The translations under genes and the position numbers were made by a program. Shown here piece by piece: positions 5,979 through 64,000 of a DNA stretch of 64,000 nucleotides. Source of the DNA: Capitulum mitella (taxonomy: Eukaryota > Arthropoda > Thecostraca > Pollicipedomorpha > Pollicipedidae); NCBI GenBank assembly GCA_030062745.1, contig CP099848.1, positions 3,129,501 through 3,193,500 on the forward strand, in the 5' to 3' direction. Every line of letters begins with the position of its first letter. Within the stretch, counting starts at the first letter, position 1. The notes beneath the pieces were generated by a model, which had not been told where the DNA came from, ran no database searches, and was given only the letters and a program-made list of their open reading frames with translations.

Positions 5979-6954
5979 GACTTTGCGCGAGGTAGGAATC
6001 TGAAATAAAAGCGAAGAGGAAGTCGTTAGGACAGGGATCACAAACGCCAAGGAGCTCGCAAGAGCGGGTAGTCGTGATAACCTTGAGGACGGATCTAAAG
6101 GTATGATGAGGGGGGAGCATGCTCCTCCCTCCTCCAGCGGTCCGTAAAAACGCGAAATCCTATGAGACACATGAAAATTGGACAAAAAGGTCAAACAAGG
6201 CCATTTAACCTCACCGGGAAGCCCGTTCCTGCATTCGACCCTGTCCATATATGACACCAGTTAAAATGATGTTAAACTTCGCCGTCTCGAAACATCTCCG
6301 AAACATAGTTAAGATCTCGAACAAAACTTTTCCTTTTAGGTACATAATGAAACTGTCATTCGAAAAATTGGGTTGATCTGCTCATTTTGATACGTCTACA
6401 CCCCCCACCGACGATTCAGTGTTGATAGAAATATGCTAGTTTTGCTAAGGTCAAGTCTGAACTTATATTAAAAAGAAACCAATATTGGGAAATAGTGTGG
6501 CATATTTAAACCATATCACTATCAAATTACTTAATAGCATTTCCCGTACGGGAAGCACCGACCATCCATGAGGAGCACCGCCCACCTCCGGCGGTGCTCC
6601 CCATAATCCAGTTGTTTTCTGGGAGCCGTGTTTCGTAATGAAGTCAATCGCCCATCAAAAAACGGCGCGAGTTTTTTGAACATCAACATACTGAAGCTCC
6701 ATTTTACGTTCAGGTAAGTAATTGTCGCAATCCAGGTTAGCTACCACAGGAGATCAAAGTTGAAAAAAGCTTGGAAAATCACCCAAAAATGTCAATAACC
6801 GCTAATAACTTGCGAAAAAACCTCTTAACCTTTCCTCGTCTGCTTGAGGGAGAAAGCGGACACGAAAAGACAGTCAGCTGATTATCTACGGCTTATAATG
6901 CGTCTGACATCGGCATGGGCGGTGCTCCCGGATGGGCGGTGCTGCCCCGTCTTA

Positions 6955-17327: not shown

Positions 17328-17331
17328 TTAA

Positions 17332-18542: not shown

Positions 18543-18546
18543 TTAA

Positions 18547-20140: not shown

Positions 20141-20260
20141 GCCGACACCATTCTGAAAGTCCAACTGGCCCTGTTACGGGCCCATTGCCCTTCCTGAAAG
20201 CATCAAGGGCTCTTAAGGAGCCGTCCAGCGGCCAATGGGAAAGCTCACATACCCTTTTAA

Positions 20261-21473: not shown

Positions 21474-21530
21474 TTAAAGGCTTAGGCTTGGACCATCTTC
21501 AAAGCTTGTTTGCCCTTTAAATAACCTTAG

Positions 21531-27194: not shown

Positions 27195-27590
27195 AGTTTC
27201 CGTCCTGTTCCGCGCCAGTTTTTCATCACTCTGAACATGAAATCCGTCCTGTTCCGCGCCAGTTTTTCATCACTCTGAACATGAAATCCGTCCTGTTCCG
27301 CGCCAGTTTTTCATCACTCTGAACATGAAATCCGTCCTGTTCCGCGCCAGTTTTTCATCACTCTGAACATGAAATCCGTCCTGTTCCGCGCCAGTTTTTC
27401 ATCACTCTGAACATGAAATCCGTCCTGTTCCGCGCCAGTTTTTCATCACTCTGAACATGAAATCTGTCCTGTTCCGCGCCAGTTTTTCATCACTCTGAAC
27501 ATGAAATCCGTGCTGTTCCGCGCCAGTTTTTCATCACTCTGAACATGAAATCTGTCCTGTTCCGCGCCAGTTTTTCATCACTCTGAACAT
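27195..27590. repeat. 44-bp tandem satellite, nine copies
   Basis: Nine head-to-tail copies of a 44-bp unit containing CGTCCTGTTCCGCGCCAG and TTTTTCATCACTCTGAACAT. Unit ends fall at 27238, 27282, 27326, 27370, 27414, 27458, 27502, 27546 and 27590. Copies differ at only a few positions (CCGTCC / CTGTCC / CCGTGC), so expansion is recent. The array starts at the edge of the Penelope-like relic. Confidence 0.95.
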
Positions 27591-27731
27591 GAAATACGAG
27601 TGTCTCGAAATGTTAGTAAGCAAATAAGTGAATAATTTTGGGCATCTGATAAGTAGTCCAGACAAATCTGCGAAACGAAAGGTCCGGGAACGTGAGCGAT
27701 GCGTCAAGAAACGAGCAAGTACAGAACATGC

Positions 27732-28276
27732 GGTCGTGGGACCACCTTGTCGTGGGGCGACCTTGTCGTGGGGCGACCTTGTCGTGGGACGACCTTGTCG
27801 TGGGACGACCTTGTCGTGGGGCGACCTTGTCGTGGGGCGACCTTGTCGTGGGACGACCTTGTCGTGGGGCGACCTTGTCGTGGGGCGACCTTGTCGTGGG
27901 GCGACCTTGTCGTGGGGCGACCTTGACGTGGGGCGACCTTGTCGTGGGGCGACCTTGTCGTGGGGCGACCTTGTCGTGGGGCGACCTTGTCGTGGGACGA
28001 CCTTGTCGTGGGGCGACCTTGTCGTGGGGCGACCTTGTCGTGGGGCGACCTTGACGTGGTACGACCTTGTCGTGGGGCGACCTTGTCGTGGGGCGACCTT
28101 GTCGTGGGGCGACCTTGACGTGGGACGACCTTGACGTGGGGCGACCTTGTCGTGGGGCGACCTTGTCGTGGGGCGACCTTGTCGTGGGACGACCTTGTCG
28201 TGGGGCGACCTTGTCGTGGGACGACCTTGACGTGGGACGACCTTGTCGTGGGGCGACCTTGTCGTGGGGCGACCTC
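27732..28276. repeat. 16-bp minisatellite, about 34 copies
   Basis: Unit GACCTTGTCGTGGGGC with two recurrent variants: GACCTTGACGTG (T to A) and GTGGGAC (G to A). The unit length is not a multiple of three, so three units encode 16 residues and every frame on a strand gives the same peptide cycle (VVGRPCRGATLSWGDL on +). All overlapping open frames here, up to 212 codons, are consequences of the repeat and not gene evidence. Confidence 0.95.
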
Positions 28277-35300: not shown

Positions 35301-36547
35301 GCCGAGGTGCCCATTGTCGGTGGTTTTCGCAGGTACTTCTCAATATCCCACCACGGAATGTGGCGTACGCCCCCACACATGTATAGGGCGTTTTATGTTT
35401 TGTTTTCGTCGACATCCGTCAAACAGTGGTTTTGGGGTGAGTCCATTTTGCAACCCATCTCTCCATATGTCGAGCCATTTCTAAACAAAATCTTTAAGAA
35501 ACCTAACGTTTGCTTTTTCATTCGGACTCTTCGACCATCTTCCAAGCCACATGTTACGTCACCGTAGGATTTGCCCTGAGGCGGTTTTTCCGAGGCTGAA
35601 TTTTCAGTTGAAATAATTAACAAAATGTAGAAGTTGACACGGGAAATAAAAATTCTGGATTTTGGGGACTGTGATCACATTTCCTTCCAAAAATTAGCGT
35701 TGGTCAAATTTACGCTAAAAAGTGATTATTCTTGTCCTAGTAGTGTGTTCCAAAGCTGGCCGGCAGATTTCCGCCAATTTGGGGGTTTTGACCTAAGTGT
35801 GATGTCATCATTCATCAGTGAAACTTGAGGCCATCAGTTAGTCCATATCTTCGGCCTCAGGGTAGGATAGGCCGCCATAGGATATCGGTTTTGGGTGATC
35901 GAGGTAGGCAGAGAAGTAAACAAATTTCCATCCCAGCCCCAGGAGCTGTAAGAGGGTGAGTTACCCCAATCAAAGATAGATTAAGCCACTTCATTAGGTT
36001 ATTCCATGTTGTACCCTTACACCTGATCTCGGGTCTTTCCAGAAATAACTGATAAAACGATCATTGATGACATGTTCAACTGTAACGCAGAAACTTCAAA
36101 AACATTTAAAAGGTTTTTTACTTGCCTTTGAGTACCACAACCCAGTGAGGTTTTTAGCCCTCGCCGGACATAACGATTTTCGCCACAGGACGGGATGGTT
36201 GCCACCCCCTGCCCATTTCGCTCCTAACTGAAACAAAACGACGAAACAAAAACTAGCGTATGGCTCATTTCTTTCGGCTTCTAATGATGACCAAATCCTG
36301 CATCTCGCCTGTGAGCTTTCAGTCCACAAAGAATGAGAACATTACATTGTTTGTCGTCTCCATCGTCGTCATACTAACCACGAGTAAGGCTGAAGGCTGA
36401 GTGGGTCTTTCCTCAATTAACAGAAAAAAATCAGACTGAGCGGCCGGCCCGGCCCGGCCTGGCCATAATCCTGTCTAGAGGCTTATAACTTTGCAAGCAC
36501 TGGGCGCCGAGTCACAAAGTTTTTATTTGGGATGAACCAGTTTTTAT
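32325..36547. other. No supported gene
   Basis: About 4.2 kb without recognisable coding sequence. A short GAT/GGT microsatellite is at about 33010-33050, a TATG microsatellite near 34864-34890, and a GGCCGGCCCGGCCCGGCC block at about 36440-36460 just left of family B copy 2. Confidence 0.45.
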
Positions 36548-36551
36548 TTAA

Positions 36552-37813
36552 CCCGCGCACGACCGTCGGTCCGTTTCGAACATCGGCGACTGGGGGGGGG
36601 GGCAGTTGACTGCCCCCCCTCTAACTCACGAACGGTTGGCCGCACGACAAAAAGAAGCACACCGTTGGAAAGATTGTGACGAGTAGAGCTCAAAACTGGT
36701 CTCATTTTTTTTAGTTTTAAATAATATGTAAGCAATTTACGCCCTATATATGTTTTCTCATAGCCGATTGCATGAGACCGAGAAACGGCCTGAATCTCAA
36801 GGGCTGTGACTAATAACGCCTAGGTAAAGCCACCAGCGCACAAGTAAATGTCCGCGGATGCCGATACACGTCTAATTTCCCCAGATTTCTTCAATATATA
36901 CGCCGAAACGTTGAGCTAAAAACACGGTAATTCTCCCGCCAGCTGTCGGGGTGCGTCGCTGCCGTATGCGGTACCAAATTGACGGGAACTAATTTTAGCG
37001 TTTCTTTATTTTCGCGAAAAAAGACGATCTATGTATATTTTATTCATCTTTGTGTTTCTTGTGATGGTTTCTCATGCTTAAATTTTGGAAAAAATTCATT
37101 AGTTACCAATGTACAAAGTTGGCGGAGCTTTATTCGCAAGAGTCTGTTTATTTCCAAAATATTCTATTTTTTCAAACTTTTTGAGGCTCCTGGTATTACT
37201 TACGTCTGTGCAAGCTAGGTCTGCCATTTTCTAGTTGCCATTTTGCCATTTTCTAGTGCAATGCCATTACCTGCCATTCTGAGTAGCTCATCGCCGATTT
37301 TGACGTTGGTACATTTTGGCTCACTACAGTTATTCGTGACCTGACCTCAGGCCAATGGCTGGAAGTCATTGATACTTTGCCCAATGACGGTAACTAGATG
37401 TCTGCTTCACTCCACACTAAAAATGTTATGAAAAATTCTGCCAATCTCCGACCAAACGACATGCCTCAAAAATGGGCTTGGCCTTAGGTCAATGACCAGA
37501 AAAATTCCGAAAAATCTGAGATAGCAGATTTGTTTCGTCTATCACGATCACTAATCCCTGAAAGTATTATTAAGATATCATGTTTTGCGAAAAAGTTACA
37601 GGACGCTAAACTTTTTTTGTCATAGGTCTGTTTGACCTGAACTAGGTCAGGCACCTGACCTGACCTGACGTCAAAATTTTGACACGAGATGTAAAATTGA
37701 TGAAGCAAAAGGTACGCGAAGTTTCGTGACTCTGTGTTTGTTCGTTCTCTCGCAATCCCAGAAAAACCTCAGGAGGGGAGCAGTCAGCTGCCCCCCCCCC
37801 AGTCGGGGACGGG
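36552..37813 (+). mobile_element. Family B TTAA-type non-autonomous element, copy 2 (1262 bp)
   Basis: Exact TTAA flanks both ends (36548-36551 and 37814-37817). Termini are CCCGCGCACGACCGTCGG and GTCGGGGACGGG, each next to a long G- or C-run. The interior matches copy 1 along its length, including the AGGTCA cluster at about 37629-37680. Relative to copy 1 it holds an extra stretch near 37035-37095 (shared in part with copy 3) and a local duplication of GCCATTTTCTAG near 37225-37255. Confidence 0.8.
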
Positions 37814-37817
37814 TTAA

Positions 37818-42702: not shown

Positions 42703-42706
42703 TTAA

Positions 42707-43909
42707 CCCGCCCCCGACTGGGGGGCCAGTTGACCGTCCCCTGAGGTTTTTCTAGGGTTGCGAGAGAACAAATAAACACAGAGATGCGAAACTTCGTGTA
42801 CATTTTACTTCATCATTTTTACACCTTGTGTCAAAGGTCTGGCCTCAGTTCAAGTCAGATGTCTGACCTAGGTCAGGTCAAACGGACCTATGTTCAAAAA
42901 AGTTTAGCGCCTTGTAACTTTTCGCAAAACAAGATGTCACAATAATACTTTCAGGGATTAGTCATTACGATAGATGCAACAAATCTATCTCAGATTTTTC
43001 GGAATTTTCCGGGTCATTGATGTAAGGTCAAGCCCATTTGTAACACATGTCGTCGTTGTTTCGGAAATTGGCGGAATTTTCATAACATTTTTAGTGAGGA
43101 GTGAAGCAGACATCTAGTTTCCGTCATTGGGCAAAGTATCAATGGCTTCCAGCCATTGACCTGAGGTCAGGTCACGAATAGCTGTTGCGAGCCAAAACGT
43201 ACCACCATCAAAGCCAGCGATAAATTACTTAGAATGAGTAGAAAATGGCAGAACTGGCATGCACAGACGTAAATAATACCAAGAACCCCCAAAAAAATAA
43301 AAATTGCATATCTTCGAAATACACAGCCCATCGCGAATAAAGTTCCACCAATTGTGTAGGCTGATACCTAATGAATTTTTCCCAAATTTAAGCAGCCGAA
43401 ACCATCACAAGAACCATAAAAATTAATAAAATTTGCATGGATGGGCTTATGTCGCAAAAATAAAAGAACGCCAAATTTATTTCCCGTTAATTTCTTACTG
43501 CGTACGGCTGCGGCGCCCGCCAACAGCCGGCGTGAAAATTGCCGTGTCTTTATGTCAACGTTTCGGCATATACATTGAACAAATCTGAGAAATTAGACGT
43601 GTATCGGCATCTGCGGACTTTTACATGTGCGCTGGTGCCTTTACCTATGCGTTATTAGTTACAGCCCTTGAGATTCAGGCCGTTTCTCGGTCTCATGCAG
43701 TTGGCTATGAGAAAACATATATAGGACATAAATTGCTTACATATCACCTAAAACTAAAAATGATACCAGTTTCGAGCTTTACTCGTCTCAAACTTTCCAA
43801 TGATGTGCTTATTTGTATCGCACGACCAACCGCTCGTGAGTTAGAGGGAGCCGGCCACCCCCCCCCCCCAGTCGGGCGTGATCGTCGCCGACCGACGGTC
43901 GTGCGCGGG
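42707..43909 (-). mobile_element. Family B TTAA-type non-autonomous element, copy 3, inverted (1203 bp)
   Basis: Exact TTAA flanks both ends (42703-42706 and 43910-43913). The order of landmarks is reversed relative to copies 1 and 2: CCCGCCCCCGACTGGGG is on the left and GACCGACGGTCGTGCGCGGG on the right. The AGGTCA cluster is at about 42838-42890. A + strand frame at 43625-44050 corresponds to the 2782-3063 frame of copy 1, but the matching frame of copy 2 has a stop. Confidence 0.8.
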
Positions 43910-44069
43910 TTAAGGTTAGAGACAGGATCAACATGGATGAAGGTCGCGACGGCTATGATACCTACGTTTTTCTGGTGCCTTTCATATCGTTTGCTGCTCT
44001 CTATCATTGTCCAGACACAAAACAACACACAATTTTACAAAATCGATTGATGAGATGTTTCTCGTACTC

Positions 44070-46250: not shown

Positions 46251-49200
46251 CCCTATTCCCGAAGGGCTAGGCGGTATCACCGATTGCCGGCGGGCGGGGG
46301 GGAGGGGCGGATTCGCCCCCTCCCCGAGATCTCGAGAACTACACATTCGATTTCATTCCAACAAACGGCAATCGATTTGCCATGACGTAAACTACATTTT
46401 TGTAAGAAGAAGTCTTCAAAATTTTGAAGGGGGTAGATACAGGGGTCAAAAAATTCAAAATGGGGATATTTTTGGACTTGTTATGACTCTGTTGTTTATA
46501 GACATATTTTGATGAAACTGGTATGAATCCAGAGATTATGAATAGGGCTTTTACCATTGGCCCATACATTTGAAATTTTCACAAAATTCATCAGTGTTTA
46601 CAAGGTTTCAAAAATAGCAGGATTTTTTTCCAAAACTGAATTAAATGGGAAGTAAAGAGGCGTTTTTTTTTGCTTCTAATAGTCATGTTATGATGAACAA
46701 GTACAAATCGTATTACAAGGTTTTGTATAATGTTAGTATAGGTGGTGTTAGGAATGTCAAAAAGGAGGAACTGCCTAGATAGAATATTAATTTGAAAAAC
46801 ATGTTGCTCATAGAAGCTATCGATTGGTGCAAAAGTGAAACACTTAAATTGAAGCACCACTCGATGACATTGGTTATGGATTATATAACATCTACACTAA
46901 ACTAAACATGGGCGTCGAATGACCTTGAAGTCGGTGCGCCCCTAAACCCCAATAACCAATCAACCAACACTAAACTAAACGTCACCGCACGCGGCAGGCC
47001 GACGCACCCGCCACAGACGAAACCTCGTGACCACACCCCGTCTACCGCCCCCGCTCAGTCGCTTAACCTCCCAGGTTTCAGGACGTATTTTTGAAACGTT
47101 CCGACTACCATCCGGCCCTCAGCGTCGGTTAGTCCGCTGCCGTAGATAAGAGTGTTCAGTGTTTTCGACGACGAAATAGCGAAGAAGCCAAAATTTAGGA
47201 TGTAAGAAATCTCCACAAACCAATGCCGTCTTAAGGTGGAATTAAAGTGAGCAATGCAAAACGAAATGGCTCACAATTTCAGATGGGTGGCCGCAGAGAC
47301 ATTTCAGAGAGGCAGAAGGCTAGATGCGAAATGAAAGGGCGTTCAATTTTGACATGCCCACTGTCAGCTGGGTATGAATAACATTACCTAATTTTGAGCC
47401 ACAGGAATATTAATTTGGGATGGGTAACCCAAGATGCTGAACCACTGCACGGTGCAATCGTCCACGAAAGGTGCAAGTGGGGACAGAGAGCGGTAGTGAA
47501 TTTCAAGGCCTTGTTGTGGCCGGCACAAAGGATCTTCGGAAAGCAGTTGTGCGGTTATCGGGAAGGGTGCGGAAATAGGCATTTCGAAGATTGAGGCCCG
47601 TGTCAGATTCCCTTGCTGGGGAAAGAATGGATCTAATGTAAGCCGGAATGTGTGACTGTGGCTCAGGTCACTTGGAAAACAATGATATTTTGTGTTTGTC
47701 ACGTCTAGTCTTGAGTGAGGCCCAGCCCAGTTCAAGTCTTAGTTTTTCGGTCGGTGTCCTCCACAGCGTTCCTGTCACAAGTCTCGCGCTCCTGTTTTGA
47801 AGCCTTTCGAGACGAAGGGCGTCGGTTACTGTTATGTTTCCGTCGAAAACAGCGTCACAGTAGTCGAAATAGGGTCTTGTGTATATCTTGTACACTGGAT
47901 CGAGAATGGATCGAGGAATTAATGGGGCTATTAGGTATAAGAAAGTAAGTGACCTGTTTACTTTTTTATAAGGTCTTGTATATGGTGACAAAAATGCATT
48001 TTTTCCGAAAGCGTAATTCCAAGATGCTTGTGACTGTCGGATAAGGGGATCTGTTGATCGTCAAATGTCAGGTATGGAGCATGTAGCGTCTTTCGGTTGG
48101 TAAATGCTTTCTGAACAGTTTTAGAGGCATTAAATCAAATGAACCATTTTTGGCAATATCTGTCAATTTCATCTAAATCGTGCTGTAATGAGTCCTGGAT
48201 TCCTTGAAGGCTGTCTGGCGTGTGATGAGCGTAGAGCGAAGTATCGTCGGCGAAGAAAAGAATGTCATTTGTATTTCTTTTTACCTAGTCCGTTGAAATA
48301 CATAAGGGATCGAGAACAGATCCTTTCGGGCAGGCGGCGTTTAACGTGCGGGTTGAAGAAATGGAGTTGCGAACTTTTACCTGTTGTGTGCGGTCTTTAA
48401 GATACGATTTAAGCCAAGACAGAAGGGAACCATTTATGCCGAATTCGATTTCGCATTTTTTTTAATAGTCCTTTGTGCCATATTTTATCGAAGTATTTAG
48501 AAATGTCGAGATAAATGGCATTAAAATCGCGACCTGTGTCCAATGTCTTGAGAAGATTATGAAAGAGATACATTAATTGGAACTGAGTGCTATGATTTGG
48601 CCGGTACACACTGTTTGTTCTTTAATAACTGATTCGCACACAAATGCCTATAAATATGTCCATAAACAAGTTTTTCGAAAATTTTCGAAAGGGACAGTAA
48701 CAACGATATGGACCGATAATTTGTGGGATCAGATGGTGAACCTTTGTTTTTAAAGGGAAGAATGGATTATTGCTTATTTCCAGGTGTTGGGAAAAATGCC
48801 TAAACGTAATGACCTGTTGGAAAGGTCGGTGAGAAGTTCGACGATTATAATCGCTTAAAGCTTGATAATTTTTGTAGGCAGTAGATCGGGACCGCTTCAT
48901 TTGTTCGGATCTCGAGCAATTACGATTCTTAGAACTTGGCGCTGGAGAACAATAAGAGCCTGAGAGTGGGCACCGGCCTGATGTCGTGAATATGTGGTAT
49001 ACCGCCCTCAGGTCAGCTTATGACCTTTGACCAGACATGACCTCCAATGACTTTAGAGTCACTTGGAATGACCTTATGTGCATGTCATATTATCTGAAAA
49101 TGTTTCCAATCATTTGAATTCACTCTATTTCTAAAATTACATTTCACGGCTGTTGTGATATAGGGTGTGCGCACTGACATTTTAGGTCATAGCTCTGTGA

Positions 49201-49680
49201 CCCCACCTGATATCAAACTGAAACGTGGTATAAAAGTGAAGGGCATTCTTTTACGTCATACATATTCTGGGTTTGACATTTGAAAAAATAGCGCCAAAAT
49301 TACTACTATAAAACCAAATTTTGACCTATGACCCTGAACTGACCTTGTGGAGTGACCCCAGACAAACAAAATTGTGTCTGTATGTTGTTCAACTATTTAC
49401 CTACACATCCATATAAACTTTTAAGTTCTATCTTAAAAAAAAATATTTTTGGAAGACATTTTCCTTTCACCCTGAACAGGGCCAAAAATGGTCTGAAGTG
49501 CCTCCCAAAACCGTTGCCTGGCTCCGCCCCTGAGCAAAATAGAATAACGAAGTTTTGTTGCAATACGCACAAACAAAAGTTAGGAAAAGTCACCAAGTTT
49601 TGTGAAGCTGCGTCAAAAAGCCCAGAATTGGCAAGCAAAAACCCGAGGGGTGGATTCTTTACCCTCTACCGGGAATAGGG
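46251..49680 (+). mobile_element. Family A TTAA-type element, copy interrupted by a LINE fragment
   Basis: The left end CCCTATTCCCG (46251) and the right end CCGGGAATAGGG (49680) are family A termini. Homology to the complete copies runs from 46251 to about 46775 and resumes at about 49010 with GACCTTTGACC. The flanks are TCAG and ATAG, so TTAA has decayed. The 2.2-kb interruption (about 46780-49005) is the reverse-transcriptase relic. This copy is more diverged than those at 17332 and 20261. Confidence 0.75.
46900..48990 (-). pseudogene. CR1/jockey-like LINE reverse transcriptase, decayed
   Basis: Read on the minus strand from about 48900, pieces of a non-LTR reverse transcriptase appear in order. 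They are a finger region (HFSQHLEISN... IIGPYRCYCPFRKFSKNLF), YRPNHSTQFQLMYLFHNLL followed by IYLDISKYFDKIWHKGLL (48409-48609), and the catalytic FADDTSLY (FADD at 48243-48254). Next are KHLGITL-like residues near 48020 and the thumb-side IYTRPYFDYCDAVFDG...LERLQNRSARLV (47668-47991). Frames shift several times, so no enzyme is made. The 5' half with endonuclease is missing. A probable 3' end containing GGTTTAGGGGCGCACCGAC lies near 46910-46975. Confidence 0.8.
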
Positions 49681-53060: not shown

Positions 53061-53108
53061 TGCCGTACTGAGCAGCCATGCTGGCCTTGAAGGCCAGACT
53101 GGTTCTGC

Positions 53109-53116
53109 TATATAAA
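53109..53116 (+). promoter_or_regulatory. TATA box of gene 1
   Basis: TATATAAA lies 57 bp before the ATG. About 30 bp downstream is TCAGGCACTTCCCTCC (53137-53152), the expected start-site position. GCACTTCCCTCC recurs at the same place in gene 2. GGCCTTG upstream (about 53084) is also shared with gene 2. Confidence 0.85.
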
Positions 53117-53139
53117 CGCTGCGTGCACATGAAAGTCAG

Positions 53140-53151
53140 GCACTTCCCTCC
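53140..53151 (+). promoter_or_regulatory. GCACTTCCCTCC start-site block, gene 1
   Basis: An identical 12-mer occurs in gene 2 at 61048-61059, in both cases about 30-35 bp after the TATA box and 21-22 bp before the ATG. It probably marks the transcription start and the first bases of the 5' leader. Identity is seen; function is inferred from spacing. Confidence 0.65.
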
Positions 53152-53172
53152 GTGACAACCGACACAGCCGAA

Positions 53173-55014
53173 ATGCGGACTTTGGTGAGTACCTCAGTAA
53201 CGACTGTCAAATCTGCTTTCTGCCAAAAGTGCATTACATTAAGGTTGCTGTGTCTGTGCGTCGAAATAGTTGTTGGCAATCGTTTGATTTGCAGTATTTC
53301 ATGAAAATTATTCATATTAAAGAAAACTGTTTATGTTAGCATCGTGATGCAAAATATTGGTACTATAACTAAGCAATATTCTATTGCTTTATTTGTCATA
53401 CGATTCAGCCAAGAGCAAATTAAACAAATGTCAAACATTAGTGTCGCTTGCAGCCAACAATATAGCTTTCCTAGCGTGAGGGTGTGTGCAACACTGGCGG
53501 ATAGCTATTGATCTATTCTCAGAGTAACACTGGTTCCATTGTCTCGTGCGATTATCCGTAGACACTGCTGCGTTCACAGGTAGTGACAAACTTTTCTTTT
53601 CACGCAGGTTCTAGCCTCCCTCCTTTTTTTGGTCGTTATGGCCATGGCTGCTCCACACGGCCATAAGAGCATATGCGGGGTGCATGACGACTCTTCAGGA
53701 AAAGCCGAAGCAGTAGTCAGTGATGACGGTGATGATGAAGGCAGTGTAGAAGAATCTGATTCCGATGGCCACGATAACAGTGATGGCGATGGTGACGATG
53801 ATGATGATAATGGTGATGATGGCGATGACGACGACGACGATGGAGATGACGACCATGATGACCATGAAGATGACGACGACGATGATGGGGAAGATAATGG
53901 TGATGATGATGGTGATGATGACGGTGATGATGACGGCGACGATGACGGTGACGACGACGGCAAAGATGACGGTGATGACGATGGAGATGATGACGGTGAT
54001 GATGGCGGCAAAGATGGCGGTGATGACGATGGAGATGATGATAAGGATGACGACGGCAAAGGAGATGGTGATGACGACGGAGATGATGGCGGCAAAGATG
54101 GCGGTGATGACGATGGAGATGATGACGGTGATGATGACGGCGACGATGACGGCGATGACGATGGAGATGACGATGGGGATGACGACGGCAAAGATGGCGG
54201 TGATGACGACGGAGATGATGACGGTGATGATGACGGTGACGATGACGGTGATGACGATGGAGATGATGATAAGGATGACGACGGCAAAGGAGATGGTGAT
54301 GACGACGGAGATGATGATGATGATGATGACGGTGATGACGACGGCAAAGATGGCGGTGATGACGATGGAGATGATGACGGCGATGATGACGGCGACGATG
54401 ACGGTGATGACGATGGAGATGATGATGGGGATGACGACGGCAAAGATGGCGGTGATGACAATGGAGATGATGGTAAGGATGACGACGGCAAAGGAGATGG
54501 TGATGACGACGGAGATGATGACGGTGATGATGACGGCGACGATGACGGTGATGACAATGGAGATGATGATGGGGATGACGACGGCAAAGATGGCGGTGAT
54601 GACGATGGAGATGATGACGGTGATGATGACGGCGACGATGACGGCGATGACGATGGAGATGATGATGGGGATGACGACGGCAAAGATGGCGGTGATGACG
54701 ATGGAGATGATGACGGTGATGATGACGGCGACGATGACGGTGATGACGACGGCAAAGATGGCGGTGATGACGACGGAGATGATGACGGTGATGATGGTGA
54801 TGATGATGGAGATGATGGCCATGACGATGATGATGGAGATGATGATGGAAAGAACAATGGCGGCGTCAGTAAACATAGCGGCAAAAGCAATAAGAGTGGA
54901 GATGAAGAGAGCAACAAAAGCAGTGGCGATGGAAATGGAGGTGAGGAGGACGGCGATAGCGATGGAAATAGTGGCGAAGGGAAAAATAACAACGAGCATG
55001 GCCATGACGGGTGA
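53173..55014 (+). CDS. Gene 1: secreted Asp/Gly-rich acidic repeat protein (472 aa, two exons)
   Basis: Exon 1 is only ATG plus three codons (MRTL, 53173-53184). The intron 53185-53607 starts GTGAGT and ends TTTTCACGCAG; phase 0. Exon 2 (53608-55011, stop TGA 55012-55014) begins VLASLLFLVVMAMA, completing a signal peptide with likely cleavage near residue 18. The head APHGHKSICGVHDD holds the only cysteine (Cys27). The rest is about 370 residues of DGDD-type repeats with periodic GKDGG and GKGDG, then a Ser/Lys/Asn/Gly-rich C-terminus ending EHGHDG. There is no membrane segment after the signal. The base repeat is 12 bp; the Lys modules are spaced in exact multiples of 12 bp. Variation is mostly T/C at third positions, suggesting the protein is selected. 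Such polyelectrolytes can bind Ca2+; a mineral-matrix, mucus or adhesive role is inference. Splicing is supported by the identical layout of gene 2. Confidence 0.85.
53185..53607 (+). other. Intron 1 of gene 1 (423 bp, phase 0)
   Basis: Donor TTG|GTGAGT, acceptor CTTTTCTTTTCACGCAG|GTT with a polypyrimidine tract. It interrupts the signal-peptide coding sequence after codon 4, exactly as in gene 2. Confidence 0.85.
53640..54850. repeat. 12-bp coding repeat array (GAY GAY GRN GRN)
   Basis: Tandem 12-bp units code DGDD and close variants. The marker GGCAAAGATGGCGG starts at 54007, 54091, 54187, 54343, 54439, 54583, 54679 and 54751. The gaps are 84, 96, 156, 96, 144, 96 and 72, all multiples of 12, with 96 bp (32 residues) recurring as a higher-order unit. 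Open frames on the opposite strand and in the third frame (up to 472 and 420 codons) are by-products. Confidence 0.9.
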
Positions 55015-55474
55015 AAAGGCCAGCTAGCGTGACCCGCCTCCTTAATATCGTATTCGTCTCACAGACAAACTCAAGTCATGTTACCTAGTATTTAATTCTG
55101 ACCTACGTTTTTACAAGAAGAGAATGTCGAACACCCCTCGTTCTGTCTTTTCATTCTGTTTGCCTAGACGTGTTGGGTGCATGGAGGGAAGTGCCATGCA
55201 TGTAACCGCAGGCTTAGAGGAAAACGATATGTTGCAACCGCTCTAGCGATGAGTGTAGCCTTTCCGTACCTGTTGCTGTGATCTGAGATGTGTCCCAAAA
55301 CATTGTCATGTCAACTAGCACTTAGAAGTTGTTTGTTTTCCCCTTCATGCACCGTGTTGCGTCTTTTGTCTTCTGGTGTACTAGTGCTCAAAGTGTGCCA
55401 TTTGTCTCCTCACCTCTTTGTTACGTCCGTGGTGTTTCCGTGCCTTTTTCAGTTTCATAAATTGAAGGTGTTTG

Positions 55475-55480
55475 AATAAA
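55475..55480 (+). terminator. Polyadenylation signal of gene 1
   Basis: AATAAA lies 460 bp after the stop codon and is followed by a T-rich stretch. It is the first canonical signal after the stop, giving a 3' UTR of roughly 480 nt. Confidence 0.7.
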
Positions 55481-55489
55481 ACAGTTCAA

Positions 55490-57374
55490 ACGATACAGTT
55501 TTCTTTAACCTAGTGATCCCGTCATGCGCAAAGCTCGGAACAAATAGTCAAGTACGGGTAATGGCGCAGGCGAAATTGTGTCATCGTGTGACAGTCCCAC
55601 GCAGACTGACCAGTGTCAAACTTAAGCAGGACGTCCGTTTGGACAAGACAAACGCCTGAGCCTCTCCATTATGCTCTGATCCGCATGCGTCATTACAGAC
55701 GAAACCGACTGGCATCACCGCGTCAGAATCGACAGACTTTAGCGCGCACTATCTTCTGAGAACGAAACATGTTTGAGGTTATCTTCACCAGGCACACAGT
55801 CAACCACCATCGCAGCCAAAGGGGGCCCCGACCCCAACCCCCTTTTGGCCCGTATCTGCTGTGAAAAACATTCCACACCTACTTGTCAGCAGGCGGTTTT
55901 CGTGCAATATCAGTTCACAGTGAGCTCCCCCTTAAAGGAAAACCTGGCTGCGCCCCTGCAGTAAACTGCCGGTCAATGGACACGAAAAACTGCAATGCTA
56001 ATTGACCAAAATACTCGAATCGATGTTTACCATGCACAACCCGCGTTTTATATCATGTCCTTATCCTTATCACACCCACGTCCACATTCTTCCATACCCG
56101 CCCTTATCAACCAGACATCATACTGTGAGGCCCTGTTACATCCACCGCAGGACAGCCATTGTAAAAGCTCAAAACCGAAGTTGCTAGAATAGACTTCCCC
56201 CAAATGTTGTTTGAATTGCCGCTTTTTTACATTTCTTTTCGATAACCCTGGAATTCTTATAGGTATGTCACCTTGAGGGCATAAAAATGTCGCCGTAGTG
56301 CATTAAGGTGTTTTAATCTACCGGGGGTGTGGCCGGCTCAATTCAGTACGCACAGTTATGAAGCATCTTGATGGAATGAAGCCGTTCTTCAGTTTACGAG
56401 GGCATTTCATCCGAACAAATGGTATTTCAGTATCTCCTGCATGACACCGCACTTTGCCGCAGACTATTTAGTAGCGGATGATTATATCATTGCATGAGTA
56501 ATCAGGCTGCTGGGGCCGAATAAAAAACGGATTCCAATTATCGTGAACTGGGCCAAGACCAGTTTTTAAAAGGGGTTGTTGTCTCGATCTCAACCCTTTG
56601 ATTCATTTCGTCTCCCAGGTCCGCTTCTGTGTTTTGTCATTCTGGAATTTAACTTCGGAAAAACACCGCTTCATAGCAAGTTCAAAACACGCGTCCCATG
56701 TCGATGGAGATGGAGGAGGAGCCCGAATGAAACAGGGCACGCTGTGCTTCCAAGTACGAATCGCATGGATGCGAGGATCGCCTTGCGCTGCGATACGGCA
56801 CGATGGACTTCCATCGACAGCTCTCAAACCAGGTCAGCACATTGCAGTAAGCGTTGTAGACATTGTATTGGGTTAAGTTCTTGGATAAAGTGAACGATAA
56901 AACGGTGGGGTCGGTTAAAATCCGCAATCTGTGGTATTTTGCATAGCCCTACCTACATGTGGCGTCAAACTCTTGAAACGTAATAGTATGCGTTTTAATG
57001 CGTATGCAAGGTGGTATGGCTTAGTTGAACTGTACACAGTAAAACCTGAATGAAAATGTAAATGAATGAATTTTCTAATCAAAACCCCCAAAATCCTAGC
57101 ATTGCTATCTCACGCAAATTTGAATGTCACGCCAGAAGGTCATAATAGATTGAAGTATTGATGGGTGGCACCTGTGATGCGGAAGAAAGACAGACCACGC
57201 TGGCCCAGACACGCCTGTCTATCGAAATCGTTGGCATTTTTCCGACATTTAACTTAATTATCTTGTGGTGCGTTGTGTTGTGGAAGATACGCGCGTACGC
57301 TGCGGAATGCATGCGCAACTTTGCCAAGTTCCGACGATGAAAAACTTGTCTGGCAAGCGCTTGTCAGTTATGCA
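55490..57374. other. No supported gene
   Basis: Intergenic sequence after gene 1. A splice-acceptor-like CGTCTCCCAG|GTCC at about 56617 opens a frame to 56876 (containing VDGDGGGARMKQG), but no TATA box, start block or signal peptide goes with it. Near 55800-55960 a piece ending CCTGGCTGCGCCCCTG resembles a TE end. Confidence 0.4.
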
Positions 57375-58500
57375 TTACATTTTACGAATGACTCCGCGGG
57401 TGTCGACGATGCTGGGGCAGCCACTCTTTCTGACGTGCACCAGGCTCCGATGGATTTCGCGGCGCCGCTGGGTGAGACTCTCGTTGATGTAGAGGCTTCC
57501 TTGCCGCCCCGCAGCCGCCATGATGCGGTCGTGGACGCTTCCAGGGCCAGAACGAACGGACTGTACAAACGGCCGCCCGGCCGCCGCCCCGGCCGCGGCG
57601 CGCAGGAGCTGCGCCAGCTGACCGCTGCGGCCCTCAGCCATAGCGTCGCCTCACAGGAGGAGGCACTGCAGGCGTGAATCGATTTCAGCGTTTTCCCTGC
57701 CGTCCCTGCCCATCTCCATTTCCTGCCCGGTGTCCTTTACTTTGTCAGCCTCTCTATCTTGTTCCTCCTCTTTATATGTTGTTCAACGTCCATTACTCTG
57801 CCGCCTAACGTGTCGAACTGCAAAGGGATGTTGTTGTCAAACTCGTGAATTGCTTCAGACAGCGACGCAGTCATTCCATTTTTTGTCTGTATTTACCTGG
57901 TCGTTGCCAGGTATTCCTTGAAGTATTGATATGTCTAGGAGGAGGACCTGACTCGCCACTCACTGCTTGCCGTCGGTTCGATGCCGGAGCTGCTGTTTCT
58001 CCAGGCTTCGATGTGTCGCTCTTCTCTCGCTTCTCACCGATACCATCGTCATGACCTCGACTAATGATGGCGCCGAAGACCTTACCAAGTCGCTGACCTC
58101 TGGCTGCTTGTCTGCGGTGTGCGAAGCGCCAGCTCGTCCCCTCCACCCTTCGCGTTAGAGGGCATTTTGTATGTGGTCTGGATCTGTGATGCAGCCGACC
58201 GCAGGCGCCGTCAGGCCCAAGATTCCTCTTCCCGTCCGAGCCAGGCCAGGACTGTCACGGCTCGTGCGCGTCCGGGTTCAAACTCTCCCTCAACACTCAG
58301 CCCGCACGACAGGCAGGTGCGCCTGCGCCACGACGCCGAACGCGACCGACCGGCTCGCCTCGCCGATCAAGGCTGCGAACGTCAGATCAGGACGCTGCGC
58401 ATTTGCCCAGGCTGGCCGGACATCGCGGTGGAAGATCCTAATCTGGAGTCGAATCGACGGCTGCGGATACCGTTCCGGGCCGTCATGTTGATGGCTTTGT
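57375..58500 (-). pseudogene. LINE ORF1-like protein relic (CR1/jockey type)
   Basis: On the minus strand, the frame 57375-57641 contains VHDRIMAAAGRQGSLYINE followed by SLTQRRREIHRSL and ends VDTRGVIRKM. This matches the pattern of LINE ORF1 C-termini, (F/Y)INEDLT plus an R/L-rich helix plus W/D-x-x-G-x-I-x-V/R-K. Upstream, 57737-57874 reads MTASLSEAIHEFDNN...LGGRVMDVEQHIKRRNKIERL, a coiled-coil-like segment usual before that domain. Farther upstream (about 58170-58480) other open pieces in changing frames continue. Stops and frame changes separate the pieces. The longer + strand frames here (57273-57677, 58119-58571) are its shadows or chance. Assignment is from pattern memory. Confidence 0.55.
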
Positions 58501-60960
58501 TAACAGGTCAGGGGCGTGGTTTGTGTAAATGGCTGGGGAGGGACGAGGAAGCGCCTGACAACCTAACCTAGCCTCAAGTGTGGCTTTCTGCAGGACTTTG
58601 GTCCACTTTGTGCTGACGGGCAGCACTTTTTCCAATACGTCATTGCCTTTTTACACACATTTGGGATTTTTTGCCGGAGAAGAAATTTATAGAAAACGAC
58701 ACCCCTGATCACTGTGCCTGTCTGACCACCAAATCCGTCGCTCTTTATTTTCTAAACGTCTCAGTTCATTTGATATCGTCAGTTCATTTGATTTGATATT
58801 TCTGCCTGTCTGTTACCTACTGCGGCCATTACGGTTGCCATTTTTGGCTATTTCCGTTCTTAACACTGTCAGGAAACATTGGGAGGCCAAAACCATCTCT
58901 CATTGGGCCAAAATCCACTTTGGGTAGGTCATAACCCCTCAAAAAATACAAATCGACACCCTATATCAGGTTTGTATCGCACTCGTGTTTCGTAATGTTT
59001 CCGGATGTGGGCATACATTGGTCATGAATCGTACATCACGACTCAGATGTAAGAGAGACAGAGGCCACCGCTAACTGGGCTCATCTGTAAGGAGGATTGC
59101 TGGCTTCAAATGCATCTGCTTACATCAAAAACCGTGCGTAGCTTGCGCTTTTCTGCGACGGATCAGCTGAGCGGACCACGCAATACAGCCCGGTCACCAA
59201 TGATCGCCAGTTTAAATAGGTAAAGCGCCGGAGACAGGTGCCAACAGAAAGAGCAGGAACGGCCTTTACAGACTCGATTAACTTGGAAGACTCTTAAAAA
59301 CTCTGACACAAATCGGAAATGGCCTGGTCCCGATGGACGGAACGCGATACCAGCCTAAATGAAGATAACGCGGCTTATCTTGCTGATGCAAGTTAAAGCT
59401 AATGTTCTGAACAGACTATCGCCTTCACAGTACGCATTCCGTACTTTCGTTTCAGAAGGCAGACGAAAGAACACTAATGAGCAGGTGAAGGTGGAATGTA
59501 CTTGGTTGACTATCCAAATATGATGGCGCCGCCACAATGTCGGTTAGTTTAGAAATCACATAGTTAAACCTGCATAATGTACCTAGATGAGGGGCCCATG
59601 CCATCTTACCATAGCCATCATGGGAAGGGGTAGAGCCCAAAACCGTGTGGTGTGGATGTCATCTAAGTGAAGATTGCTGCATCTTTTGCAAAATTTTACC
59701 TCTCCCCCTCTCTCTCTCCCTATCGCGACTTTTTCAGATTTTCGAGAAGGCTACTTGTTTGCCTCTGATATAGAAGTCAGTGAGCAGTGCATCCATATAC
59801 CTGAAAATGGGTTCTAATGAGTTTGTACCACAGCTCCTCATTTCATCCCGAATAGCTGGATTCCACTTGACATAACATCACTGGAGTTCGTAATGCCGGA
59901 GCGCCAGTGTCATAGTTTTCGAGGCGTTTTTTAATCAGTCAGGGAAAGTGCCATCTTGACACAGTTTCTTTGCATGTAGTGCCAAGTGGGTTAGGGCCGC
60001 TACACCCGTTGCAGCGCGTCCATCTTCTCACAATTTACAGATCAGGAATGGTTTACCCGGATTAGATCTAATACCGATTATCATTTTCCCGAAACAAAAT
60101 GGCATGGGAAGGGCAAATGCGTTTTAGCTTATCACTCACCACCTGTTGGTTCACAATGCCATTTGTGAGGGTATTATTATGGAACAAGGCATTGTTCTTC
60201 CCGAAAAAATTAACATCATTTCGTTCGCCGCAACACCAATAGTATATACAGTAAAGCAGTAAAACAGGGCACACATACGCAAACACGAGTGCACAAGATG
60301 TTTAAAGACTGCACTATCGCTTGTGTGTCTTTGCACATGCAAGCCAAGAATACAAAAATTTACGAAGCTTGGAATTTCAAAGTTCTGGTGCATAATATGT
60401 GCACTAGGAGTTTTTGCAGAGACAATGAAGGCAGCTGCTTGACTTGCGTTTTTCTCGTATTATTACTTAAGCTATTACTTCCATCGCGCATTAAAAATTG
60501 AGGGATTTGGTTTACGGTTGTTTGTGGTAATGAGTGTTCAACGAAAGTTTCGCCACACGTCAAAATCTGGTAAGACATCAACGATTTCAAGGCATCTCTT
60601 TCCATGAAATGCCCAAATGCTTAGAACGGAATCCTACGAAAGATGGAGGTGCGCGTCACAGTTTCTTTCATGAAGAAACTATGGTTTCTGTGGAGGTTGC
60701 ATGTTAGGAAATTAACGGTATCCGTCCTTGAGGAAGTGAGCATGAGTGCATGGAACGATGTGCATAGCAATGACATGTCACCATGCCGCTCTCCAGCGAA
60801 TCAGAAGATGAATTTTACATCGAGAGTGGAAACTGCATGCACCAGTGCCGGCAGCCCACATCCGAGGGCCTCCTCTGGCGCCCCAGCCAGCGCGGTGAAG
60901 AAACAGGTTTGGCGAGAGAGGAGGAGGAAACATCCGGTCTCGATCTGCGTAATCGTCCTC
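58500..60960. other. No supported gene; one family E fragment
   Basis: Intergenic sequence before gene 2. Apart from the family E fragment at 58850-58961 and a CT-rich run near 59700-59722, nothing recognisable. A frame at 60783-60986 (67 codons, acidic and Arg-rich, ATG in ACC context) ends 29 bp before the gene 2 TATA box; it has no known motif. Confidence 0.4.
58850..58961 (-). mobile_element. Family E element fragment (left end, inverted)
   Basis: Reverse-complemented, it starts GGGTGTCGATTTGTATTTTT, then GGTTTTGGCCTCCC, with AAGAACGG farther in. This is the order seen at the left end of the 9042-9489 copy. Only about 110 bp remain. Confidence 0.6.
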
Positions 60961-61014
60961 GTCCTTGCTGTTTCGGGCAGTTCTGACCGGCCTTGGTCCC
61001 TGCCGCGGCTCGGC

Positions 61015-61022
61015 TATATAAA
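61015..61022 (+). promoter_or_regulatory. TATA box of gene 2
   Basis: TATATAAA lies 57 bp before the ATG, exactly the distance seen in gene 1. The extended block GCTATATAAAC and GGCCTTG upstream (about 60989) are shared with gene 1. Confidence 0.88.
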
Positions 61023-61047
61023 CAGCGGCGTGGGCCTCATCCAGAAG

Positions 61048-61059
61048 CACTTCCCTCCA
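61048..61059 (+). promoter_or_regulatory. GCACTTCCCTCC start-site block, gene 2
   Basis: Identical to 53140-53151 of gene 1, at the expected distance after the TATA box. The leader that follows (GACAAC, CACAG, CG) also matches gene 1 up to the ATG. Confidence 0.65.
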
Positions 61060-61079
61060 GCGGAGACAACACAGTCGCC

Positions 61080-62112
61080 ATGCGCGCTCTGGTGGGTACA
61101 TGCAGAGGTGTCAGTGCTTCTGGGCATTTCGCTGTCGTTCGTTTGTCCAGACTGCGGCCTGCTGTGTTTGACTGGCTCAATTGCGCTCTGACATCGAAGG
61201 CGCTCTTATCGCACAATGACTGCTTAAACGGAAGGACTATCGGCCATGTCCACTTAGCCAAACAGCGGCGAGTGTGGCGCCTCCTGTGCTGACAATCCGA
61301 CCGCGGACTGAGTTGCACGTGTTCCGCAGGTCCTCATCTCGGCGGCGCTGACGCTCGCCCGGGCGATGCCGAATCCTGTGCACCACCACGGGATGCTCTG
61401 CGTGCCAGAGCCTGCTCACGCGGCGGCGGCCGGGCCGGCTCCTCCGGCCGCCGCCGCCGCTGCTGTCGACACGACCGCTGCCGAGGCCGCCGCCGCCACC
61501 ACCCCTGGGCCCGACCCTGCCGCCGCTGCTGGAGTCGCCCCTGCCGCTGCTCCTGAGGCTGCCGTCGCTGCTGGCGACGCCGAGGCCGGAGAAGTGGTTG
61601 AGGCTGCCAATGCTGGAAAGGCTGCTGGAGCTGCTGAAACTGCTGAAGCTGGCGAGGCGGCTGAGGCTGGAGAGGCTGCTGAAGCTGCTGAAGCTGGTGA
61701 GGCGGCTGAGGCCGGAGAGGCTGCTGGAGCTGCTGAAACTGCTGAAGCTGGCGAGGCGGATGAGGCCGGAGAGGCGGCTGAGGCTGCTGAGGCTGGTGAG
61801 GCAGCTGAGGCTGGAGAGGCCGCTGAAGCTGCTGAAGCTGGCGAGGCGGCTGAGGCCGGAGAGGCGGCTGAGGCTGCTGAAACTTCTGAAGCTGGCGAGG
61901 CGGCTGAGGCCGGAGAGGCGGCTGAGGCTGCTGAGGCTGGTGAGGCAGCTGAGGCTGGAGAGGCCGCTGAAGCTGCTGAAGCTGGTGAGGCGGCTGAGGC
62001 CGGAGAGGCTGCCGAAGCTGGTGAGGGTGCCGAGGGTGCTGAAGCCGGTGAAGCAGGAGAAGGTGGTGAAGGCGGTGAGGCTAGCGAAGGCGATGCTGGC
62101 ATGAGGCGCTGA
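61080..62112 (+). CDS. Gene 2: secreted Ala/Glu/Gly-rich acidic repeat protein (264 aa, two exons)
   Basis: Exon 1 is ATG plus three codons (MRAL, 61080-61091). The intron 61092-61329 starts GTGGGT and ends TGTTCCGCAG; phase 0. Exon 2 (61330-62109, stop TGA 62110-62112) starts VLISAALTLARA, completing a signal peptide with likely cleavage after residue 16. The head MPNPVHHHGMLCVPEP carries the only cysteine (Cys28). Next is an Ala/Pro-rich segment of about 70 residues, then repeats of a 15-residue unit (AEAGEAAEAAEAGEA and variants; 45 bp) with Glu as almost the only charged residue, and a Gly/Glu-rich end (GEGGEGGEASEGDAGMRR). No membrane segment follows the signal. Ala/Glu repeats may form acidic helices. 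It shares promoter, exon layout, leader and single Cys with gene 1 but not the tail, so the tails were probably replaced or grown separately. Function unknown; a secreted structural or matrix role is inference. Confidence 0.83.
61092..61329 (+). other. Intron 1 of gene 2 (238 bp, phase 0)
   Basis: Donor CTG|GTGGGT, acceptor GTTCCGCAG|GTC. It sits after codon 4, within the signal peptide, as in gene 1. The acceptor is followed by GTYCT in both genes (Val-Leu). Confidence 0.83.
61610..62060. repeat. 45-bp coding repeat array (Ala/Glu/Gly)
   Basis: Imperfect units built from GCTGAGGCTGGAGAGGC and GCTGAAGCTGCTGAAGCTGG, read as AEAGEA and AEAAEA modules alternating to about 15 residues. The opposite strand (Ser/Leu- or Ala/Ser/Pro-rich frames of 228-294 codons) and the +2 frame (Leu/Arg-rich) are open as by-products. 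Confidence 0.88.
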
Positions 62113-64000
62113 ATATCTCAATTGCCATAATTGTTGTCAGCTAGCATAATTTCGGTCATTTGACCGGAATTGGTCCCTGCTGGCTTATCATTGTCACTCG
62201 ATGTCATTGATCGGTCATCGGCAGTCGCGTCATCTTCCGTGTGGCGCCATCCTCAGTCAACGTTGTTTTCGTGGAGTGGAAGTGCTCTGTGTATTATTGT
62301 CCGCTGGCCGTGTGGAATTGGTCCCACTATGTGGGAAGCATTCCAGAAGAGTACGGGCAACGTGGCTCCATTTCCTTGTCTTTAAATGTCTTTTTCTTCT
62401 GCGCATGTCATTTATTAACCGTCTTCGACACTGCGGATTTCCTTTTCTGTCATGTCCATTGTCAAATGCATGTATCAAAAGTTGTACATATCCCCAAGAA
62501 ATGAGTATACGCAATACAGCGTAAACCACGGAAAGGTTTTGAAAATATGGAATACGCCAGGAATGAAACATTCAAGAATGAGACCTTGCACCGGCATACG
62601 GTTTCCACTGAAATCGCGTTTTTTCGTCATAGGAATAGACCGTAAATTGTCTCCAAACCTTACGCAACGTGCTGACGAGAAAAGGAATGCCAGAGAAAGC
62701 TATAGGCTGCACGAGGTTCAAAGCATAAACAAATGTTTTTAGTGGGCTCGTCATTCCTTAGCCAACGTCATGTTTCAGCATGACACCCTCTGATTTGCGC
62801 ACTTTCTCCCCCGGCATGAAAAGCCAATGTCTCAGAACATCTTGAGCATATCAGGACGATATTAGTCAGACCTCACCAACAAAAACTCATGGTTTGGGGC
62901 TTATGCGGGGGACATAAATCAGGCCTGAAAGCACCGGGCTGCGAAGTGTTAGCATTCGAGTTTCTGTACAAGGACATGTTTGCTATCTTCTGCATTTTTC
63001 AGCGTAACTGCCAAACTGCAAACGTCGGCGGCCCCACTTTTCAGTGAAACCCATTTCGTGTCAAAACGATAAAAAAATAAAAACGTAAGATAAAATAAAA
63101 AACAAAAAATGATTGGCATGATAACCACATCATGTCCTACAACGCCACAAGCTGAGTCGATGATGCGGTTCCTGTTCATATGAAAGGCCATGTGAAAGTA
63201 CATGTCAAAGGTCATAGATCAGGCCATAGCCTAGTTTGAATTCGTGATCTTAATCGAATTCGCGTGACTATTGCGAAAAAAACAAATATCTGTGACAACA
63301 CAAATTTGTTTAACGCTGTATCTTGACAGGACGTACAAAATCTTGCCAAATTCGACCATTCTTGCTTTGAATGTGCTTTTGGAGCACAGAGCGCCGTCAA
63401 ATGTAGCGTTTTGACCCTACCTGTGGCGTCGTTGGTTAACTGGAGGTCAACCGATGAGGAATATCTGGTGACACAGGGTGACAGGCTATCGATTGTCGCT
63501 TGAATCATCAAAATCGGACAATTAGTCCTCGAGATAGGCGGGGGAGGGACTAAAAATTGGACCTCATACCCCGAAGCCACCGAAATACCTCAGTCAGTGC
63601 CATGTGTTATGGTCAAGCCGACTCAGGCCTGGATGGGCCGGCCACACAATTGGGTTTTTCTTCGGTCACTTGGTGTGTAGACTATTCTACTGTGGACTGT
63701 ACAAAGACTACAGTAGAATGTACTCTACTGTAGACTCTGCAACCGAGCATTTGTTGTCCCAGGACTCTGCGTTGTCCTGGGACAACTAGGCAGGTGAGTT
63801 TTGTGTTCTGTTGCCTAAACCAGCCGAGAAATGCGAAGATAGGTAGGATGTGTTTTCACTGCATCCCAAATGAGCTCAAGCCAAACATAAATCAGTTAGG
63901 TAACTGTGAGGCATTATCCAATCAAATGCCCTCGGAGGCGCATAGGCAGTATCTTTTTCATACAAGAATCCAGATATGAATAAAATATGTTATCACGCTT
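62113..64000. other. No supported gene; downstream of gene 2
   Basis: No AATAAA is seen within about 900 bp of the gene 2 stop; the nearest are in an A-rich run at about 63073-63100, so the 3' end of gene 2 is unresolved. No further TATA plus GCACTTCCCTCC promoter was found before 64000. Short open frames lack motifs. Confidence 0.4.
63684..63786. repeat. Two adjacent hairpins
   Basis: GTTGTCCCAGGAC (63753-63765) and GTCCTGGGACAAC (63774-63786) are perfect 13-bp inverted arms with an 8-base loop. Just before, ATTCTACTGT (63684-63693) pairs with ACAGTAGAAT (63710-63719). No T-run follows, and nothing suggests a known RNA gene. Confidence 0.75.

Follow-up and report, generated by a model that had tools for sequence, protein, structure and literature searches.

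Predicted messenger RNA leaders complementary to their own 3' untranslated regions in two neighbouring genes for acidic repeat proteins of Capitulum mitella

How two neighbouring genes can share the layout of their 5' ends and then encode proteins as unlike as an Asp/Gly and an Ala/Glu/Gly repeat is the question raised by a stretch of 64,000 nucleotides (nt) from Capitulum mitella (GenBank assembly GCA_030062745.1, contig CP099848.1, positions 3,129,501 to 3,193,500, forward strand), hereafter the window, to which all coordinates refer. A preliminary description of the two, here called gene 1 and gene 2, proposed a family of secreted proteins built from a conserved head and interchangeable tails. 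Their most unusual feature is absent from that description: the predicted first ~25 nt of each messenger RNA (mRNA) are complementary to the 3' untranslated region (3'UTR) of the same gene, over 25 base pairs (bp) in gene 1 and 24 bp in gene 2. We favour, at a probability of about 0.5, the reading that these are two diverged, coregulated paralogues which would encode secreted polyanionic matrix proteins, and whose UTR pairing possibly controls translation.

A block in the leader, common to both genes, occurs a third time in inverted orientation within gene 1's own 3'UTR (55183-55193), and this inverted block pointed to a pairing between the UTRs. In both genes the 3' arm lies about 150-180 nt past the stop codon, and the string GGAAGTGC is found on the + strand of the window just twice, at 55187 and 62278, which is 172 and 165 nt after the respective stops. 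Complementarity sets in at the inferred cap site, 30-31 nt past the first T of the TATA box, and does not reach further upstream. Paired with its own 3'UTR, the gene 1 leader reaches -47.6 kcal/mol and the gene 2 leader -40.4 kcal/mol, values equalled by none of 359 and none of 342 dinucleotide-preserving shuffles of the 3'UTRs. Controls made of real sequence (1500 pairs of 34 nt x 500 nt at offsets of 900-2000 nt and of similar GC, drawn from the whole window with its repeats) never reached the corresponding gene 1 value of -47.8, and reached the gene 2 value of -39.8 in four cases, at least two of which fall in dispersed repeats with inverted ends. No other site in the mature mRNA pairs as well with the leader as the 3' arm does, either in gene 1 (-47.8, next -26.3) or in gene 2 (-39.8, next -33.2). 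Chance is an unlikely source of the complementarity in both genes.

A broader scan for partners covered 510 half-overlapping 500-nt segments on both strands, the four antisense segments of the two leaders being set aside. The gene 1 leader found its best partner in its own 3'UTR (-47.8, runner-up -38.7), and the gene 2 leader paired somewhat better with the 3'UTR of gene 1 (-41.8) than with its own (-39.8, next -36.4). This poor partner specificity is the first of several points that weigh against a functional pairing. As leaders and 3' arms cross-pair between the genes, covariation or compensatory evolution with the own partner is not demonstrated; the window contains 34 inverted matches of at least 12 bp with 200-3000 nt between their starts, 18 of them of at least 13 bp and gene 1's own among these; and the pairing was found post hoc rather than predicted, in two genes.

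Folding of the full-length mRNAs yields a divided picture. All 24 duplex pairs of gene 2 are kept with each of the three 3' ends assumed, and all 25 of gene 1 with the 3' end set at 55300. When the gene 1 transcript is extended to 55495, past its AATAAA, the duplex is absent from both the minimum free energy (MFE) structure and the ensemble, and forcing it costs 26 kcal/mol (-464.0 vs -489.9), which also speaks against the pairing. In this longer fold the 3' loop AGGGAAGUG stays open and the complementary stretch of the leader is partly paired, its nt 1-5 and 10-15 being bound elsewhere; a loop contact would be possible in such a fold, of a kind that nested folding cannot score. Further points on the same side are that neither AATAAA nor ATTAAA follows gene 2 until 63076, and that the gene 1 3'UTR taken alone is not unusually structured (z 0.75; gene 2, z -2.69).

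The local structure around the 3' arm differs between the genes. In gene 1 an 8-bp stem with one G-U pair presents the seed GGAAGTG in an open loop of 9 nt, and this hairpin is present in both the local fold (-12.7 kcal/mol) and the MFE fold of the 3'UTR. A 7-bp stem that holds the seed in a loop of 8 nt can be drawn for gene 2, and here the evidence turns against the pairing again: three of its seven pairs are G-U, the local fold (-4.8) narrows the loop to 4 nt, and the hairpin is missing from the MFE structure of the 288-nt 3'UTR, in which the seed is partly paired elsewhere. Both genes can place the whole seed in the loop of a stem of 7-8 pairs, a point in favour of the pairing; such a placement is open to 1.2% of positions in the window and 2.6% of those in 3'UTRs. 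Since the gene 2 hairpin is weak, a seed-presenting hairpin common to both 3'UTRs is a suggestion.

These mixed results give some room to a plainer account, in which genes 1 and 2 are ordinary coregulated secreted matrix genes of the cuticle or shell type and the complementarity arose by chance, with no function in the RNA. We regard it as a genuine possibility, though not as the probable answer. It is usual for insect cuticle genes to have a TATA box and a first coding exon of 12 nt, and the longer gene 1 fold, the interchangeable partners, the many inverted matches and the weak gene 2 hairpin all fit this account. What it leaves unexplained is the rarity of such pairing among the real-sequence controls (0/1500 and 4/1500) and the occurrence of the arm in two genes at a near-identical distance past the stop.

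The 3' arm might alternatively be an inverted copy of the leader at the level of DNA, whether left behind by an inverted gene copy, formed as a foldback or derived from the terminal inverted repeat of a mobile cassette, and not an RNA device at all. Inverted repeats are common in the window and the inverted block is present in both genes, as such an origin would have it. We nevertheless consider it very improbable: the similarity ends at the inferred cap site, excluding the TATA box and the upstream DNA, and an unselected relic should have decayed, because the 3'UTRs otherwise do not align. Moreover, four of the five substituted positions across both duplexes are G-U, which is tolerated in sense RNA; as the folding method favours G-U, this excess is weak evidence.

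The answer to the opening question also depends on whether the two genes are related, and how far. The TATA box, leader block, four-codon first exon, phase-0 intron and single cysteine at residue 27 or 28 which the preliminary description listed as common to both were re-derived in position and number, and the distance from TATA to ATG that it called equal is nearly so, being off by one (64 nt in gene 1, 65 nt in gene 2). In both genes the predicted intron interrupts the predicted signal peptide at phase 0 directly after the four-codon exon 1, and the start context ACACAG..ATGCG and the protein start MR.LVL are common to the pair. Aligned over promoter and leader, the genes score 37, the best of 100 shuffles scoring 24. 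The pattern CTATATAAA-N(10-40)-CACTTCCC, a TATA box plus leader block, matches twice in the whole window and never in 100 shuffles. Viral contigs gave no match to the pattern; two matches in prokaryote contigs were put down to chance, as ATGCG did not stand at the expected place in the stretches inspected and, by our own estimate, 3-4 matches were expected.

Both gene models are credible as predictions, because a scan of both strands for anatomy alone (TATA, short exon 1, splice, hydrophobic start and an open reading frame (ORF) of at least 80 residues, with no knowledge of sequence) yields just these two genes, in three rows of which one is an alternative acceptor of gene 1. A simpler scan (TATA, ATG, about four codons, GT) returned one further match, at 48649, which was rejected as spurious owing to a stop inside the exon. 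Directly upstream of the gene 1 TATA box lies a near-perfect palindrome, TGGCCTTGAAGGCCA, at 53082-53096, with an unpaired central base and GGCCTTG as its half.

Beyond the 5' part the resemblance fades. Introns, exon-2 head DNA and 3'UTRs of the two genes show no similarity above shuffles, and BLASTP produced no alignment of the gene 1 head with the gene 2 head. The similarity of signal peptide plus head is equalled by 95 of 5000 regional shuffles, that of the head portion past the signal peptide by 1147 of 5000, which is not significant. Since neither the post-signal head nor the introns and 3'UTRs carry significant similarity, the case for homology of the genes lies in promoter, leader, exon-1 layout and 3' arm and not in the mature protein. 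The conserved head previously proposed thus survives as DNA and exon anatomy and not as protein past the signal peptide; likewise, of the head-plus-promoter cassette bearing different polyelectrolytes, the promoter, leader and exon-1 part stands, and the head as a conserved protein is not supported by significant similarity past the signal peptide. In a tblastn search of the window with both heads, only genes 1 and 2 fell below E 1 among the best 14 matches listed.

This fading would also be expected if genes 1 and 2 were not homologous and had converged, in one tissue, on a common core promoter and a short-first-exon secretory layout, which is common in insect cuticle genes. Such convergence seems improbable to us, as it would have to produce a leader block identical over 12 nt, GGCCTTG at the same -26 position of the two promoters, the same start context and protein start, and a matching 3' arm. 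Common descent of their 5' parts is the best account of the promoter, leader and exon-1 cassette that the genes share.

The spliced products are predicted to have 472 residues in gene 1 and 264 in gene 2, each with a single cysteine (residue 27 and residue 28, respectively) and a hydrophobic N-terminal start which, by hydropathy alone, is predicted to be a signal peptide. As previously described, the tails are unrelated apart from being acidic and repetitive: gene 1 is 53.2% Asp and 24.6% Gly, in DDDG/KDGG units, with 3.8% Ser and five Ser-Gly dipeptides in its 472 residues, and gene 2 is 43.2% Ala, 21.2% Glu and 13.6% Gly. Acidic residues outnumber basic ones by 263 to 23 in gene 1 and by 61 to 4 in gene 2. 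Over the tail repeat units, entropy at the three codon positions of the predicted frame is 0.23/0.32/1.03 bits in gene 1 and 0.13/0.43/1.01 in gene 2; as the third position varies most, both tails look constrained as protein. A single-sequence AF2 model of the gene 2 exon-2 product, which is only indicative, forms one helix over residues 74-236, with a predicted local distance difference test (pLDDT) score, taken over blocks of ten residues, of 86-94 between 81 and 220. Two results lend no help to a matrix role: a Pfam scan of both exon-2 products and both heads gave no family above cut-off, and a PDB search with the gene 1 head only gave no match. The weak Pfam matches below cut-off, to HRP in the gene 2 repeat and to DUF3679 in the gene 1 head, were judged compositional.

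Known systems resemble these genes in parts. Among the CPR cuticle genes of Anopheles that have introns, 86% carry an interruption within the signal-peptide region; in the CPR genes the first coding exon has 12 nt as both median and mode, and a TATA box with an initiator (INR) occurs in 93% (PMC2259329). Because they are typical of these genes, a four-codon exon and a TATA box are ordinary for secreted structural genes. Genes 1 and 2 share with them the TATA box, the 12-nt first coding exon, the intron within the signal peptide and presumed secreted structural products, and differ in having acidic repeat tails instead of an R&R or other Pfam domain: no Pfam family above cut-off represents the R&R chitin-binding consensus in either exon-2 product or head. 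Bivalves and a barnacle have very acidic, Asp-rich shell proteins, such as Aspein of Pinctada (57.6% Asp, 15.5% Gly) and an acidic barnacle shell protein with 41.2% Asp (PMC4519255). Gene 1 is Asp-dominated as these are and gene 2 is not; Aspein consists of poly-Asp blocks punctuated by Ser-Gly, unlike the gene 1 units, and the DEAD motifs that define Asprich (PMC4519255) occur in neither protein (0 strings in both). A promoter common to unlike tails is not described for acidic shell proteins in the available part of that source. The repetitive low-complexity proteins of the mollusc mantle are likewise novel, secreted and fast-evolving, whereas here two dissimilar repeats stand behind one promoter, leader and exon-1 cassette (PMC4897951). 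The opinion that no named family has this combination needs qualifying, in that the layout is the commonest one in Anopheles CPR genes and secreted repetitive proteins of very acidic composition are known from shells of molluscs and barnacles.

For the RNA feature the nearest parallels come from elsewhere. A double strand joining the 5' and 3' UTRs of p53 mRNA has been reported as important for translational control (PMC6468297); it too involves a cellular mRNA, but it is mammalian and mediated by RPL26, whereas here the arm is cap-proximal and belongs to two unlike genes. Plant RNA viruses offer a comparable complementarity in their 3' cap-independent translation elements, where a loop in the 3'UTR base-pairs to the 5' end (PMC5382211), although those elements are viral and cap-independent and a convincing hairpin is found here in gene 1 only. 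By analogy, the UTR pairing of genes 1 and 2 may work like either, without being classed with them. The combination of features is not described in the part of the literature matches surveyed by titles and abstract openings, a statement that makes no claim about print at large, and a literature search with the tail repeat strings gave only an unrelated match.

Under the favoured reading of two diverged paralogues with paired UTRs, genes 1 and 2 would be expressed together through one type of TATA core promoter, likeliest in a secretory epithelium, and the signal peptide would export each polyanion to an extracellular material. The lone cysteine in its short His-bearing head could serve as a dimer link or an anchor; the Asp/Gly tail is probably flexible and the Ala/Glu/Gly tail probably helical, and both could serve to bind Ca2+ or further cations wherever the proteins are deposited, be it shell, cuticle, tube, cement or mucus. 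The cap-proximal leader of each mRNA may make contact with the 3' arm and then zip up with it to ~25 bp, bringing the ends together. The likeliest role of such a 5'-3' contact would be to gate access to the cap or to circularise the message, and in this way to regulate how matrix mRNAs are translated or how stable they are: the duplex could mask the cap until unwound, as repression, or keep the ends together for protection and re-initiation, and the data choose neither. As the arms cross-pair, contacts between different mRNAs of the gene 1 and gene 2 kind would also be possible. A bolder version, which we put forward as speculation and think unlikely, is a portable cassette of core promoter, leader, exon 1 and an ancestrally hairpin-loop 3'UTR element, complementary to the cap-proximal leader, that carries a family of secreted polyelectrolytes with replaceable tails, whose mRNAs close up singly or pair with one another, giving all members the same switch for translation or mRNA packaging. 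Should the pairing prove real, this would be an endogenous case in an animal of contact between leader and 3'UTR, similar to that of viral 3' elements and placed on structural-protein genes; what the family conserves would then be an expression device and not a protein, which would help to explain the origin and joint expression of new low-complexity matrix proteins. If only the protein part holds, the locus adds one more pair of acidic matrix genes without known relatives.

Table 1. Coordinates of genes 1 and 2 and of their elements; introns, signal peptides and cap sites are predictions
Gene	Feature	Positions	Strand	Remarks
1	Gene	53109-55014	+	TATA through stop
1	Proximal element GGCCTTG	53083-53089	+	26 nt ahead of TATA start; within palindrome
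1	TATA box TATATAAA	53109-53116	+	
1	Leader, 5' arm of 25-bp duplex	53139-53165	+	Starts 30 nt past TATA start (inferred cap site)
1	Leader block GCACTTCCCTCC	53140-53151	+	Exact 12-nt block common to both genes
1	Exon 1 coding part, MRTL	53173-53184	+	ATG 53173; reads ATGCGGACTTTG, then GTGAGT
1	Phase-0 intron, predicted	53185-53607	+	423 nt; GT donor 53185, AG acceptor 53606-53607
1	Exon 2	53608-55014	+	Signal peptide remainder, His/Cys head, Asp/Gly tail, stop
1	3'UTR arm, complementary to leader	55170-55195	+	25 pairs; AGGGAAGTG 55185-55193, open hairpin loop
1	Poly(A) signal AATAAA	55475-55480	+	Motif match
2	Gene	61015-62112	+	TATA through stop; neighbour of gene 1
2	Proximal element GGCCTTG	60989-60995	+	Position -26 relative to TATA
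2	TATA box TATATAAA	61015-61022	+	
2	Leader, 5' arm of 24-bp duplex	61046-61070	+	Starts 31 nt past TATA start
2	Leader block GCACTTCCCTCC	61047-61058	+	Exact 12-nt block common to both genes
2	Exon 1 coding part, MRAL	61080-61091	+	ATG 61080; reads ATGCGCGCTCTG, then GTGGGT
2	Phase-0 intron, predicted	61092-61329	+	238 nt
2	Exon 2	61330-62112	+	Signal peptide remainder, His/Cys head, Ala/Glu/Gly tail, stop
2	3'UTR arm, complementary to leader	62262-62286	+	24 pairs, two bulges; TGGAAGTG 62277-62284, possible stem loop

Between the two genes, GC-rich open frames on the + strand at 57258-57677 and 58068-58571 have no Pfam match above cut-off (the former has a weak Speriolin_N match, E 0.077) and could be exons of a further gene. 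An Rfam search gave nothing at the gathering threshold and a tRNA scan with bacterial settings found none. Pfam was also run on 18 further ORFs, out of 89 of at least 100 residues, and matches at or above cut-off were confined to three ORFs of one transposon-like element, the DNA transposon remnants at 4139-6260 on the - strand, whose separate ORFs carry DDE_1, HTH_psq and a PHD finger, and which we take to be pogo/Tigger-like. Two families of dispersed repeats of ~1.2 kb are present, the first at 2704-3873, 36546-37817 and 42703-43911 and the second at 17328-18553 and 20257-21483, with shorter, more diverged pieces at 46251-46773 and 49008-49650; identity between the ~1.2 kb copies is 82-93% in both families. 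Adjacent minisatellites comprise nine 44-bp units (27199-27595, 98% match) and thirty-four 16-bp units (27733-28275, 95% match). CpG is not depleted in the whole window (observed/expected 0.93), and AGGTCA/TGACCT occurs 115 times, as compared with about 31 expected at equal base use by our own estimate.

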